Below are positions 40,865 to 44,662 of a stretch of DNA of 64,000 bases, piece by piece. The position numbers and the translations under genes are program-made. The DNA is from Lachnospiraceae bacterium. GTDB lineage: Bacteria; Bacillota; Clostridia; Lachnospirales; Lachnospiraceae. Each line of letters begins with the position of its first letter. Within the stretch, counting starts at the first letter, position 1. A model generated the notes under the pieces. The model saw only the letters and a list, made by a program, of their open reading frames with translations. It ran no database searches and had not been told where the DNA came from. The stretch is taken from positions 305,633 to 369,632 of the forward strand of contig JAIEFE010000015.1 of NCBI GenBank assembly GCA_029067085.1, given 5' to 3'.

Positions 40865-42640
40865 CTATGAAGCGCCAAACTGCGCCATGTAGAGACGGTA
40901 GTAAACCCCCTTCTTCGCCATCAGCTCCCCGGCGTTTCCCTCCTCGATGATCCTGCCGTCATCCACCACAAAAATGCGGTCGGCTTTCTGGATGGTGGAG
41001 AGTCTGTGCGCAATGACAAAGGAAGTCCTGCCCGCCAGCAGATGCTCGATCCCCTCCTGCACCAGAAGTTCCGTCTTCGTGTCGATGCTGGAGGTGGCCT
41101 CGTCCAGAATCAATATCTTCGGATCGGAGACCATGGTCCTCGCAAAGGCCAATAGCTGTCTCTGACCGATGGAGAGACCGCCGCCGCGCTCCGTCAGTTC
41201 CGTATCGTACCCCTTCTCCAGCTTCATAATAAAGTCATGCGCGTTGACGGCCTTGGCCGCCGCCACGATCTCTTCCTCCGTCGCATCAAGCTTTCCGTAC
41301 CTGATATTCTCCCGGATGGTGCCGGAAAAGAGAAAATTATCCTGCGTCATGATTCCCATCTGTCTGCGCAGGCTCTCGATGGACACCTTCTTGACATCGT
41401 GGCCGTCCACCGCCACAACACCTTCCTGCACATCGTAGAAACGGCTGATGAGATTGACGATGGTGGACTTGCCGGCCCCTGTAGGACCCACCAGTGCGAT
41501 GGTCTCGCCCTCCCTGATCCGAAAACTCACGTCGTCCAATACCCTGACCTTGTCGTCATAGGAAAAAGTCACATTGTCGAAGGTCACCTCACCGCGGATC
41601 GGCGGCATTTCAGTCACACCGGCATCGTCCGTGATCGCAGGCGGCGTATCCAGGATCTCAAAAATACGCTCCGCACCCGCAATGTTAGTCACAAGCTGGT
41701 TATAAAAATTGCTCAGATTGTGAATGGGCTGCCAGAACATATTGAGGTATGTTCCGAAAGCGATAAAGGTTCCAACGCTCACGTCCTCCATCCCCAGCAC
41801 GACGATCCCCGTAAAGTACAGGAGAATGCAGCCTATCCCCCATGAAAGGTCTATCACCGACCCGAAAGCGTCGCTCATGCGTACCGCATGGTTAAAACTC
41901 TCCCGATGTTCCCTGAGAAGGTCGTCAAAAGTTTCCTCCGTCTCCTCCTGTGCATGGAAACTCTGGATGATCCGCATCCCCGCCATATCCTCGTGGATAA
42001 AGGCATTCAAATTCGCGGATTTTCTGCGGAAGAGCTGCCAGCGCGGGTGTGCCTTGATCTGGATAAAAAGGATTCCTGCCGTCATAAAGGGAATGGTCAT
42101 CATTGAAGCAAGCGCAAGCTTCGGATTCTTTCCGATCATAATAGCCACCACCGCAAAGACGGTCAGCGCGTCCGGAATCAACGTGGTCACAAAGTTAGAG
42201 AGGACATCCTTCAGTGAATTGATATCCCCGATGATACGGGAAAGAATCTTTCCCGTGGGCCTGCTGTCAAAAAAAGCAAAATCCAGCTTCTGAATATGCG
42301 TGTAAAGTTCCTGTCTGATGGTGAGCAGGATCTGATTGCAGACCTTCGCCATGATATACATCCGCAGCTTCACCGTTACCACCAGAAACAGATTGATGGC
42401 GAGGGCAAAGAGAAGCAGACGGTAAAGTCCGTGCAGATCGTGTTGACTGATATAGTCATCTGTTGCCGATTCCATGATCAGAGGATTCACCAGACTCACC
42501 GCGACACCGTAGCCCATGATGAGGAGCACCAGAACGATCTGCCATCTGTAGGCAAGCAGATAAGAAAAGAGACGTTTTAAGGTCTGCGCCTTGCTCCGCT
42601 CTATGCTTGCTTCGTCATCTTTATACGAATTGAAGGACAT
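40865..42640 (-). CDS. Heterodimeric ABC exporter subunit with canonical ATPase
   Basis: 591 residues from the ATG at 42640, which follows GGGAGG; the longer frame runs into the upstream gene and lacks a site. Six membrane helices, then Walker A GPTGAGKST, signature LSIGQRQLL and Walker B ILILDEATSSID with the catalytic Glu. Partner of the overlapping gene upstream, whose ATPase has Asp at that position. Together they resemble BmrCD/LmrCD-type multidrug exporters. The start overlaps the upstream gene by 20 bases. Confidence 0.9.
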   Translation of the reverse strand: MSFNSYKDDEASIERSKAQTLKRLFSYLLAYRWQIVLVLLIMGYGVAVSLVNPLIMESATDDYISQHDLHGLYRLLLFALAINLFLVVTVKLRMYIMAKVCNQILLTIRQELYTHIQKLDFAFFDSRPTGKILSRIIGDINSLKDVLSNFVTTLIPDALTVFAVVAIMIGKNPKLALASMMTIPFMTAGILFIQIKAHPRWQLFRRKSANLNAFIHEDMAGMRIIQSFHAQEETEETFDDLLREHRESFNHAVRMSDAFGSVIDLSWGIGCILLYFTGIVVLGMEDVSVGTFIAFGTYLNMFWQPIHNLSNFYNQLVTNIAGAERIFEILDTPPAITDDAGVTEMPPIRGEVTFDNVTFSYDDKVRVLDDVSFRIREGETIALVGPTGAGKSTIVNLISRFYDVQEGVVAVDGHDVKKVSIESLRRQMGIMTQDNFLFSGTIRENIRYGKLDATEEEIVAAAKAVNAHDFIMKLEKGYDTELTERGGGLSIGQRQLLAFARTMVSDPKILILDEATSSIDTKTELLVQEGIEHLLAGRTSFVIAHRLSTIQKADRIFVVDDGRIIEEGNAGELMAKKGVYYRLYMAQFGAS

Positions 42641-44369
42641 TGCTCTCACCTCCCTTATATTCCCCATACTGGGACAGATACGTCTCATAGTAGAGCCCCC
42701 GCTTTGCGAGGAGCGTCTCATGCGTGCCCCGCTCCGCGATCGCTCCGTCCGCCAGAACCAGGATCTCATCTGCATTGCACACTGCACTGATCCTGTGCGC
42801 AATGATAATTTTCGTTGTATTTTCCAGTGTTTTCAGAGTCTGCTGGATCATCTGCTCCGTCTCCATGTCGAGTGCAGAAGTGGAGTCGTCCATCACCAGG
42901 ATCGGATCCTTTTTAGCGAGCGCTCTGGCAATACTGATCCTCTGCTTCTGTCCTCCGGAAAGCCCCACGCCGCGCTCGCCGATGACCGTATCATACCGGT
43001 CCTCCATGCGTTCGATAAAACCGCTCGCCTGCGCCTGCGTGGACGCCCGCCTGACAGTCTTGAAATCTATGTATGCCTTTTTCCCCAGTTTGATATTCTC
43101 CTGAATGGTGTCGGAGAAGAGAAAGACATCCTGCATCACATAGCTGATGCTCATGCGAAGCTGCGCAAGGGAAAGCTTTCTGATATCCACGTCATCCAGA
43201 TAGACCGCGCCGTCTGTTGCGTCATACATCCGCTGTAAAAGCTGCACGATGGAAGTCTTTCCCGCTCCGGTCGCTCCCATGATCCCCAGGGTCTTGCCGG
43301 CCTCCACCGTAAAGGAGATATCGTGGAGGATCTCATATTGATCTGCCTTGTGAAAAGAAACATGGTCAAAACATACTTTTCCGCGTACCTTATCGAGTTT
43401 GACCGGTTCAGTCATCTCTGTGACAGTAGGCTTTTCCTCATAGAGCTTTCGAATCTTTTTGTAGGATGCCACCGCTGCCGAGAAACTGTTCGTCAGCCAT
43501 CCCAACATCTCCATTGGCCACACAATTGCGCCTGAATACTCCACAAAGGCCGTCAACTGCCCCAGCGTCATTCCGCCGTCTATGACAAGTTTTCCGCCGA
43601 CCAATACGGTCAATAGCGGTAACACTCTGGTCACTACGGTGAAACAGGGGTAGTATCTTACAAAGACTTTGGACTGCTCCATATTCAGTTCATAGTATCT
43701 CTTGTTATGGGAGAGAAATTTACCGATCTCAAATTTTTCTCTGGCAAACGCTTTGACTGTGCGCACGCCCGCCAGATTCTCCTCAGCCACCGTATTTAAG
43801 GCCGCGTTTTCCTCGCTGATCTCCTCGTAGACCTTCCCCAGCTTCCGCTCCATAATGACAGCGAAGGAGCCGCACAGGATCATGGCAGCGGTAGGAATAA
43901 TGGCCATCCGCCAGTTGAGCAGATACATGCTGGTCAGCGTGATGGCCGTGTGGTAGATCACTTCGATCAGAAGCATACCGACATAGCCCAGAGCATCCCA
44001 GATGCGGTCGACATCCTCCTTGACACGCGCCATCAGCTCACCCGTGTTTGTCCTGTCAAAGAAATCCGCCGACAGGCTCTGCACGTGGTGAAACAGATCC
44101 CGCCGCATATCTCCCGATATCTTGGCGCCGTTCTTGTCGAAGGTATATTCCTTGGTATACTGAAAGATACACCTTCCCAGACCGATTCCAAGAAATCCCA
44201 GAAGCAGTCCCGGCAGCTTTCCCGTATTGCCGCCCACAATGACATCATCCACCACCCGCGCCATCAGTCTGGGGGAAAGCATGTCAAGTGTGACTGCGAT
44301 CAAAAGGGACAGCACGGCTATCAGATACGAAAAGCGATATTCCCATAGATAACTTGATAACTTCTTCAT
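42621..44369 (-). CDS. Heterodimeric ABC exporter subunit with degenerate site
   Basis: 582 residues. Six membrane helices, Walker A GATGAGKTS, signature LSGGQKQRIS, and Walker B ILVMDDSTSALD, where Asp replaces the catalytic Glu: the usual mark of the non-hydrolysing half of a heterodimeric exporter. The ATG at 44369 follows GAGGAG. It is preceded by a 37-residue ORF and a strong hairpin, an arrangement like the attenuated bmrB-bmrCD operon of Bacillus. Substrate probably a drug or hydrophobic compound, by analogy. Confidence 0.9.
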   Translation of the reverse strand: MKKLSSYLWEYRFSYLIAVLSLLIAVTLDMLSPRLMARVVDDVIVGGNTGKLPGLLLGFLGIGLGRCIFQYTKEYTFDKNGAKISGDMRRDLFHHVQSLSADFFDRTNTGELMARVKEDVDRIWDALGYVGMLLIEVIYHTAITLTSMYLLNWRMAIIPTAAMILCGSFAVIMERKLGKVYEEISEENAALNTVAEENLAGVRTVKAFAREKFEIGKFLSHNKRYYELNMEQSKVFVRYYPCFTVVTRVLPLLTVLVGGKLVIDGGMTLGQLTAFVEYSGAIVWPMEMLGWLTNSFSAAVASYKKIRKLYEEKPTVTEMTEPVKLDKVRGKVCFDHVSFHKADQYEILHDISFTVEAGKTLGIMGATGAGKTSIVQLLQRMYDATDGAVYLDDVDIRKLSLAQLRMSISYVMQDVFLFSDTIQENIKLGKKAYIDFKTVRRASTQAQASGFIERMEDRYDTVIGERGVGLSGGQKQRISIARALAKKDPILVMDDSTSALDMETEQMIQQTLKTLENTTKIIIAHRISAVCNADEILVLADGAIAERGTHETLLAKRGLYYETYLSQYGEYKGGESNVLQFV

Positions 44370-44403
44370 ATGATTCTCCTCAATACCTCCGCAAAACGTG
44401 GAA

Positions 44404-44431
44404 AGGGCTGTGGTAAAATTACCACAGCCCT
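44404..44431 (-). terminator. Attenuator-like hairpin between the leader ORF and the ABC exporter
   Basis: Perfect 13-base arms AGGGCTGTGGTAA / TTACCACAGCCCT with a two-base loop, followed by TTTCC and a later TTTT. Lies between the leader ORF stop and the exporter's ribosome site. Confidence 0.65.
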
Positions 44432-44476
44432 CGAATACTCTAAAAGCCTGACATATCTATATATCGACTAAACGAG

Positions 44477-44590
44477 TCAATGCCTTCCGTTCCCGCCGAT
44501 ATCCGTATATGCGGAGGTAATTTCACATAACATATTTCTGTTTGATTGTCTGCCGTTTTCGGCCATTTTATGAAACTGATTCGTAAACAT
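44477..44590 (-). CDS. 37-residue leader peptide upstream of the ABC exporter
   Basis: Starts MFTNQFHKMAENGRQSNRN and ends IGGNGRH. The ATG at 44590 has AAGGAGG seven bases upstream, one of the best ribosome sites in the window, and lies 37 bases after a TTGACA/TAAGAT promoter, which rules out a longer start. The peptide is too short and polar for an enzyme. Its stop is followed by a strong hairpin and then the exporter genes. By position it matches the regulatory leader BmrB of B. subtilis, where ribosome stalling controls bmrCD. The sequence itself is not recognised. Confidence 0.65.
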   Translation of the reverse strand: MFTNQFHKMAENGRQSNRNMLCEITSAYTDIGGNGRH

Positions 44591-44633
44591 GAGACTACCT
44601 CCTTTCCTTGATTTTTTGTATGATACTTTTGCT

Positions 44634-44662
44634 ATCTTAATACATGGCATAAGCGTTGTCAA
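44634..44662 (-). promoter_or_regulatory. Promoter of the leader-ABC exporter operon
   Basis: TTGACA (44657-44662), 17-bp spacer, TAAGAT (44634-44639). Confidence 0.75.

Follow-up and report, generated by a model that had tools for sequence, protein, structure and literature searches.

How is a putative heterodimeric ABC exporter controlled when a short open reading frame (ORF) and a strong hairpin stand between its genes and their promoter? The question is raised by a locus in a stretch of 64,000 nucleotides of Lachnospiraceae DNA (called the window throughout; all positions refer to its whole length), in which the leader elements and the exporter lie on the minus strand, with an alpha-amylase-family gene upstream of the leader on the same strand. 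The initial annotation had read this layout as a bmrB-bmrCD-like leader acting by ribosome-mediated attenuation. Its promoter was recovered by a promoter scan as a sigma-70-type site (TTGACA, 17-nt spacer, TAAGAT; 44662-44634), and the 37-codon leader ORF that it had named is present behind a good ribosome site, AAAGGAGGTAG, with the Shine-Dalgarno core GGAGGUA (GGAGGTA in the DNA). The fold of the leader region beat 200 of 200 dinucleotide shuffles (z -4.1). A small GACT..AGTC hairpin overlaps the leader stop codon and was seen by eye in varied versions in close relatives; a role in pausing would be speculation.

The exporter genes

The exporter pair proposed at the outset is real and consists of two adjacent half-transporters resembling BmrC and BmrD. 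Subunit A starts with ATG 44369 and gave matches to both ABC domains, membrane and ATPase. Among the best 60 of its 291 solved-structure matches, the best bacterial chain was BmrC/YheI (8t1p_C, E 8.9e-93), which was outscored by eukaryotic P-glycoproteins. The frame of subunit B is listed from TTG 42802, the likelier start being ATG 42640; among bacterial chains TM288 ranked first, followed by Sav1866, 5mkk chain A (presumably TmrA) and BmrD. The Walker B region reads MDDSTSALD in subunit A, with Asp at the usual Glu position, and LDEATSSID in subunit B. This asymmetry is typical of heterodimeric exporters, in which the Asp marks the degenerate catalytic Glu. Judged by sequence, the pair thus has the make-up of a BmrCD-like heterodimer, with two adjacent half-transporters of which one carries a degenerate catalytic Glu.

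Table 1. Positions of the leader elements and exporter genes in the window.
Feature	Position	Strand	Basis
-35 hexamer TTGACA, leader promoter	44657..44662	-	promoter scan
-10 hexamer TAAGAT, spacer 17 nt	44634..44639	-	promoter scan
Segment 1, leader Shine-Dalgarno GGAGGTAGT, partner of segment 2	44594..44602	-	minimum-energy fold, shuffles, covariation
Leader ORF, 37 codons and stop, ATG 44590 to TGA	44477..44590	-	ORF list; equivalent leader ORFs in orthologues
Segment 2, GTGAAATTACCTCC, within leader ORF, partner of segment 1 or segment 3	44513..44526	-	pairing, conservation, covariation
Small hairpin GACT..AGTC overlapping leader stop codon	44466..44478	-	by eye
Terminator-like hairpin (3:4), stem 13 bp, loop 4 nt	44403..44432	-	fold; covariation
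Segment 3, GGTAATTTTAC, hairpin loop with the adjoining parts of both arms, partner of segment 2	44413..44423	-	conservation, covariation
Weak U-tract TTTCCACGTTTT, overlapping stem foot	44393..44404	-	sequence
TGCGGAGGTA, complement of ORF stretch TACCTCCGCA	44384..44393	-	sequence; full-length complement not conserved
Exporter ribosome site GAGGAG	44376..44381	-	read from sequence
Exporter subunit A, 582 aa, BmrC/YheI-like	42621..44369	-	ORF list; structure-chain and domain matches
Exporter subunit B, half-transporter like TM288, Sav1866, BmrD	40865..42802	-	ORF list; structure-chain matches

The leader and its hairpin in front of orthologous exporters

A total of 110 upstream regions were compared: the window, 80 orthologue loci (the best 80 of 426 confirmed stretches) and 29 loci of same-family genomes (from at least 30 matched loci, the window itself removed). 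Not all of them are independent, e.g. L005 and L037 are apparently one stretch. The closest relative with a name, L034 from a Lachnospiraceae bacterium, has an exporter 96% identical to that of the window. An automatic search recovered a leader ORF plus terminator in 91 of the 110 regions, the leader ORFs standing in equivalent position in the orthologues. Among the other 19 regions, leaders missed by this search are present in L061, L068, L070, L082 and L110, L019 matches the element model described below, L074, L095, L096 and L008 are incomplete, and L017, L023 and L031 make up the remainder together with six regions (L005, L037, L045, L049, L064, L067) in which no leader was found by the search used. 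In L038, L051, L024, L027 and L028 the automatic terminator picker took the wrong hairpin, as judged by eye; these five stay in the per-locus counts (91-locus set, partner swap, run lengths of the TACCTCCGCA:TGCGGAGGTA pairing, promoter sites, reading frames and T runs) and were excluded from alignments A1 and A3.

Promoter-like sites were found upstream of the leader in 80 of 90 loci, where 13.0 would be expected from mononucleotide shuffling. The 13-bp stem of the initial annotation is present in the window, beginning 44 nt past the leader stop codon, but the hairpin was not called as a terminator by a terminator scan: the stem is strong and the longest T run in its tail TTTCCACGTTTT is 3. 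A T run of at least five follows the hairpin in 70 of the 91 loci. The window hairpin may terminate poorly because of this weak U-tract. At many exporter loci the U-tract downstream of the hairpin is often followed by GCGCG, GTGTG or GTGCG (by eye).

The leader peptide of the window had no match besides the window itself in 150 family genomes, and a fixed-gap DNA pattern, with gap limits that leave out the window itself, gave one forward match in 397 family genomes versus two for the reversed control.

Three predicted competing helices

The strongest match within the leader region was absent from the initial annotation: the ORF segment TACCTCC pairs with the leader's own GGAGGTA. This match defines helix 1:2, in which the leader Shine-Dalgarno (GGAGGUA, segment 1) is bound by UACCUCC inside the ORF (segment 2, core GAAAUUACC / GAAAUUACCUCC). 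In helix 2:3, the candidate antiterminator, GAAAUUACC pairs instead with the 5' arm of the hairpin (segment 3), and helix 3:4 is the terminator hairpin itself. All three recur across exporter orthologues, so that a short ORF with a ribosome site overlaps the switching segment and the predicted antiterminator and terminator helices are mutually exclusive.

At single loci the two alternative pairings of segment 2 differ in strength. In the window, none of 100 shuffled ORFs equalled the match of the ORF to its own Shine-Dalgarno, and in 64 of the 91 loci the 1:2 match was equalled by at most one of 100 shuffles. The 2:3 match was mostly within chance, only six of the 91 loci reaching the same level, and the weight for this predicted pairing comes from conservation. 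The same holds for the second pairing put forward initially, AAATTACC with GGTAATTT in the hairpin: the two are exact complements, but taken alone they lie within chance, as 47 of 100 shuffled ORFs paired as well with the arm.

The first pairing of that proposal, TACCTCCGCA with TGCGGAGGTA downstream of the hairpin, fared differently. The two stretches are exact complements over 10 nt in the window, but not elsewhere at full length: in the 79 of 91 loci with the segment recognised, the longest Watson-Crick run reached at most 6 nt in 64 and 7 nt in 13, with single loci at 8 and 10 nt. We rejected it as the switch, since its full length occurs only in the window, and regard it as either accidental at this locus or recently acquired.

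Covariation was analysed at two depths. In the close-family alignment (A1, 36 sequences) helix 3:4 covaries strongly; no covariation was detected there for 1:2 or 2:3 because both are nearly invariant. In a broad alignment of 40 diverse sequences (38 before the exporter plus L126 and L127, which precede other genes), compared with shuffles that leave shared ancestry in place, the covariation score was 0.172 for helix 1:2 (0.119 ± 0.009 in shuffles), 0.283 for 2:3 (0.182) and 0.568 for 3:4 (0.304), each reached by none of 500 shuffles. For each helix the number of paired cells exceeded that of all 500 shuffles, and both paired cells and covariation score exceeded all slid versions. In helix 1:2, 96.4% of the cells were paired and nine were changed on both sides (2.0 in shuffles); helix 2:3 had 25 such cells (10.1 in shuffles). 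The measure of pairs changed on both sides stayed within the shuffles, being reached by 250 (1:2), 96 (2:3) and 86 (3:4) of 500, and the count of pair types was beyond the shuffles for 2:3 and 3:4 (0 of 500 each) and not for 1:2 (250 of 500).

The letters of the Shine-Dalgarno and segment 2 vary in concert among the 40 sequences: GGTAA stands with TTACC in 26, GGCAG with CTGCC or TTGCC in four, GGTAG or GGTAA with CTGCC or TTGCC (T-G wobble) in four, and six show other combinations. When partners of helix 2:3 were swapped among 50 distinct segment 2 cores, a test that likewise leaves shared ancestry in place, the own partners paired at 431 positions versus 388 ± 7 for swapped ones, a value reached in 0 of 20,000 swaps. 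L038 is an exception, with GGAGGCAG opposite TTACC.

This pattern bears on two other readings of the locus. Were the hairpin a plain intergenic terminator and the ORF incidental, the exporter being expressed by basal readthrough or from another promoter, one would expect loci such as L005 (genome G060, of the window's genus), which lacks a leader and has just a hairpin separating its upstream gene from the exporter; L037, apparently the same stretch, also keeps the hairpin. Such an arrangement is very improbable as the general rule given the promoter-like site, the leader and the three covarying helices in orthologues, and the recurrence of the element before another gene family. Nevertheless, the hairpins without leader in L005 and L037 and the lack of a detected leader in L045, L049, L064 and L067 count as evidence against a translation-dependent attenuator. 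Alternatively, a metabolite or protein rather than a ribosome could bind the leader RNA, and attenuators of this type are common in Firmicutes. Here the 36-sequence alignment has its invariant letters in the Shine-Dalgarno, the start codon, segment 2 and a portion of the hairpin and shows no other conserved core, and the window and 15 relatives gave no Rfam match at the gathering score (below threshold only weak matches appeared, the best in the window region with E 0.12). We regard a ligand-binding leader as having hardly any likelihood.

The RNA rather than the peptide is conserved

Leader peptides diverge among the exporter loci. Segment 2 could be anchored to a reading frame in 84 of the 91 loci (seven could not be anchored), and it was read in three frames (59, 18 and 7 loci), being translated as ITS, LPP or other strings. 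It is therefore the RNA and not the peptide that is conserved. Segment 2 lay inside the ORF in 84 of 84 anchored loci, a figure that arises partly by construction because the search covered only the ORF and 25 nt beyond.

A trp-type run of codons was not found: in the window leader no amino acid is encoded by three or more codons in a row, and such runs occurred in 9 of 91 leaders with none shared across leaders. Amino-acid-specific attenuation was rejected on the ground that the leaders have no common codon run. Six of the nine carry three or four Asn codons in a row (L013, L022, L054, L060, L066, L105), the other three Val or Ser. Asn makes up at least 20% of five exporter leaders (L013, L054, L098, L105, L016); the window leader is not Asn-rich. 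The Asn-rich leaders may reflect A-rich unstructured RNA or something that is sensed.

A probable kinetic switch driven by the leader ribosome

Folding was modelled for an RNA transcribed only as far as the hairpin's 5' arm and loop, with stretches masked by a ribosome. For the window, the model predicted helix 1:2 without a ribosome (10.9 expected pairs), helix 2:3 when a ribosome masked the leader start (11.1 expected pairs) and neither of the two when segment 2 was masked. The same pattern was predicted in five of six relatives (L034, L066, L100, L085, L103), the exception being L112, whose partial fold preferred 2:3 even without a ribosome. For the full-length RNA, with segment 4 made, helix 3:4 won in every modelled state; therefore the switch must be kinetic. 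Antitermination is kinetic in other attenuators, too.

These predictions suggest the following sequence of events. In a leader without a ribosome, helix 1:2 would form as a conserved anti-antiterminator and hide the leader Shine-Dalgarno, so that segment 3 would be left for segment 4 and transcription would terminate. A freely moving ribosome would keep segment 2 covered during synthesis of segments 3 and 4, and again the terminator would form. A ribosome held at or near the leader start, e.g. by a translation inhibitor, would mask segment 1 and expose segment 2, which could pair with segment 3 as the antiterminator before segment 4 exists, and transcription would proceed into the exporter. 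The output would thus be off without translation, off with free translation and on when a ribosome is held early.

Since the leader ORF and the mutually exclusive helices are conserved in orthologues, ribosome-mediated transcription attenuation is the best explanation, and on comparative and folding evidence we consider it highly likely that the element attenuates transcription in dependence on translation, through competition among the three helices. It would probably sense stalling of the leader ribosome in a trp-like manner and switch the exporter on when ribosomes stall. The mechanism class proposed by the initial annotation is well supported by the comparison of sequences, the helices being conserved and covarying in orthologues, whereas the detailed wiring differs from its proposal, including its TACCTCCGCA:TGCGGAGGTA pairing. 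We infer termination at the hairpin, translation of the leader, stalling as the signal, drugs as its usual cause and the substrates of the exporter.

The same three helices could also be operated by initiating ribosomes that occupy the leader start rather than by stalled elongation, in which case any ribosome kept on the leader Shine-Dalgarno would free segment 2. Segment 1 being the Shine-Dalgarno itself fits this idea, and no arrest motif common to the exporter leader peptides was seen by eye. On the other hand, normal elongation would bring the ribosome over segment 2 at roughly codons 22 to 26 of the window's ORF, and the location of segment 2 within the ORF in all anchored loci, though in part a product of the search, would suggest that elongation matters. 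We judge control by initiating ribosomes to be unlikely.

Relation to known attenuators

In the trp operon attenuator of Escherichia coli, segments pair as 1:2, 2:3 and 3:4. The element follows this logic (the trp system as summarised in the part of PMC4191407 consulted), with the differences that its leaders share no amino-acid-specific codon run and that segment 1 is the leader Shine-Dalgarno. In B. subtilis, according to the sections consulted of the same report (PMC4191407), translation of the bmrB leader is needed for induction of bmrCD by lincomycin, and bmrB encodes 53 aa with the terminator inside its coding sequence. The window resembles this system in having a leader ORF before a BmrCD-like heterodimeric exporter, alternative stem-loops and a subunit A whose best bacterial chain, among the best 60 of 291 matches, is YheI/BmrC. 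It differs in that its ORF has 37 codons, its terminator follows 44 nt past the stop rather than lying inside the coding sequence, and its segment 1 coincides with the Shine-Dalgarno of the leader. The likeness to bmrB that had been proposed is thus functional and not structural, as judged by layout, with the bmrB terminator placed as in the portion of PMC4191407 used.

For the ABC-F resistance genes vmlR and cplR, the excerpts used (PMC9226507, PMC10201436) describe a ribosome stalled on a small, three-codon ORF that lets an antiterminator replace the terminator, an explicit anti-antiterminator in the vmlR leader, and sequestration of the main gene's Shine-Dalgarno as well. The same logic from stalling to antitermination is proposed for the window element. 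As compared with these excerpts, the window ORF has 37 codons rather than three and contains the switching segment itself, and pairing close to the ribosome site of the exporter has a single candidate, which is not conserved. In Streptococcus pneumoniae, a terminator, an antiterminator and an anti-antiterminator were predicted before the ABC exporter genes patAB (PMC4319486); a leader ORF is present here, and none is described for patAB in the parts of that report covered. The element itself was not described in Rfam, in the mostly open-access literature searched or in the passages of noncoding RNA surveys covered.

Occurrence before other genes

The more surprising part is the wide occurrence of the element and the second class of genes under its putative control. 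The window element was the only strong match within its genome (E 1.3e-28); two others had E >5, one of them being the same hairpin on the opposite strand. Among 397 genomes of the family, 28 contained matches to model R1, 29 in total: 21 on loci with the exporter downstream (window included), one before an RsgA-like GTPase gene (L126) and one before an rqcH-type gene (L127). The remaining six (L135, L136, L141-L144) were rejected as terminator-only by eye. In L127 (1501-2260) the attenuator is followed by a 54-aa ORF without Pfam match and, about 550 nt downstream of the attenuator, by the rqcH-type (NFACT) gene; it is the second copy in its genome, the exporter copy being L145.

With model R2, matches were found in 58 of 344 genomes of the order. 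At least 28 further loci were obtained (L148, L149 and L166 being places already met), which include loci of three other families (f2, f22, f24); 27 have an exporter-A-like gene (41-63% identity) and one an RsgA-like gene (L164). In the class, 28 of 341 genomes had matches, and 2 of the 26 further loci (L175-L200) have an exporter-A-like gene (L176, L181). The other 24 lacked a match to any of the four proteins used as queries; they were discarded as apparent chance matches to terminators or coding sequence. Many genomes from the window's family and some from neighbouring families thus have the predicted element upstream of the exporter.

A search with the L126 protein returned relatives in 32 of 200 family genomes. 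The attenuator lies upstream of 10 of 30 RsgA-like loci (at least 30 in all; R2 E ≤1.2e-4), namely L211 (the L126 gene), L212, L213, L215, L216, L217, L218, L219, L221 and L223, which brings the total to 11 with L164. Eight of the 30 loci yielded no frame by the reading-frame filter, and their upstream regions were scanned with R2 alone. Genomes G129 and G687 contain a better-scoring RsgA elsewhere; therefore the RsgA-like genes are paralogues there. In L164, L216, L217 and L219 the open frame starts with about 200 extra residues that look acetyltransferase-like by eye; Pfam gave no acetyltransferase match for L164.

Precedents exist for such a target. As far as covered in the respective reports, the Listeria rli80-hflXr leader encodes 14 aa with an Arg-Leu-Arg motif and controls hflXr, a paralogue (PMC6310831), and the uORFC-6-1 motif precedes hflX (PMC8632094). 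Both resemble the present case in placing a leader ORF attenuator before the gene of a ribosome factor, RsgA-like here, and rli80-hflXr in the portion of PMC6310831 used is an earlier example of a paralogous ribosome-factor gene controlled in this manner. The Arg-Leu-Arg motif of the rli80 and uORFC-6-1 leaders, as described in these excerpts, was not seen in the window leader.

The leader peptides of the RsgA group are more alike than those before exporters and many of them carry an EIVxEYxMxTSV-like string not shared by the exporter leaders; therefore a role of the peptide is possible there. A leader peptide specialised for arrest, sensing a single drug or the substrate of the pump via the exit tunnel, would agree with this common EIVxEY..TSV-like string and with arrest motifs in other leaders, such as Arg-Leu-Arg in the hflXr leader (described in part of PMC6310831). 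The divergence of the exporter leader peptides and the reading of the conserved segment in three frames argue against it, and we consider an arrest peptide improbable as the sensor. Within the attenuator reading, no other observation points as strongly as the RsgA-like genes to sensing of the state of translation instead of a single drug.

Our tentative view, held with slightly less than even confidence, is that Lachnospiraceae and relatives place a portable translation-stress sensor, acting by competition for the leader's Shine-Dalgarno, before unrelated genes, its targets being a multidrug-type exporter, RsgA-like GTPase paralogues (some with the acetyltransferase-like extension) and possibly rqcH. 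If so, the RsgA-like proteins would be inducible factors of ribosome protection or rescue, a relation like that of HflXr to HflX, and the paralogues are candidate additions to the inducible response to ribosome inhibitors. The element would be a compact attenuator that senses through the ribosome site of its own leader, with a peptide that seems unimportant before the exporter. The sequence by itself then predicts efflux and ribosome-factor genes that would be induced in gut Lachnospiraceae upon translation inhibition.

At five RsgA-like loci (L222, L224, L225, L227, L229) a different short leader was observed upstream of the gene (e.g. MKKLEMVICN). Here a complement of the Shine-Dalgarno region follows the stop codon (CGAAAGG/CCTTTCG in several), and a terminator comes next; this leader may exert the same control by an alternative layout.
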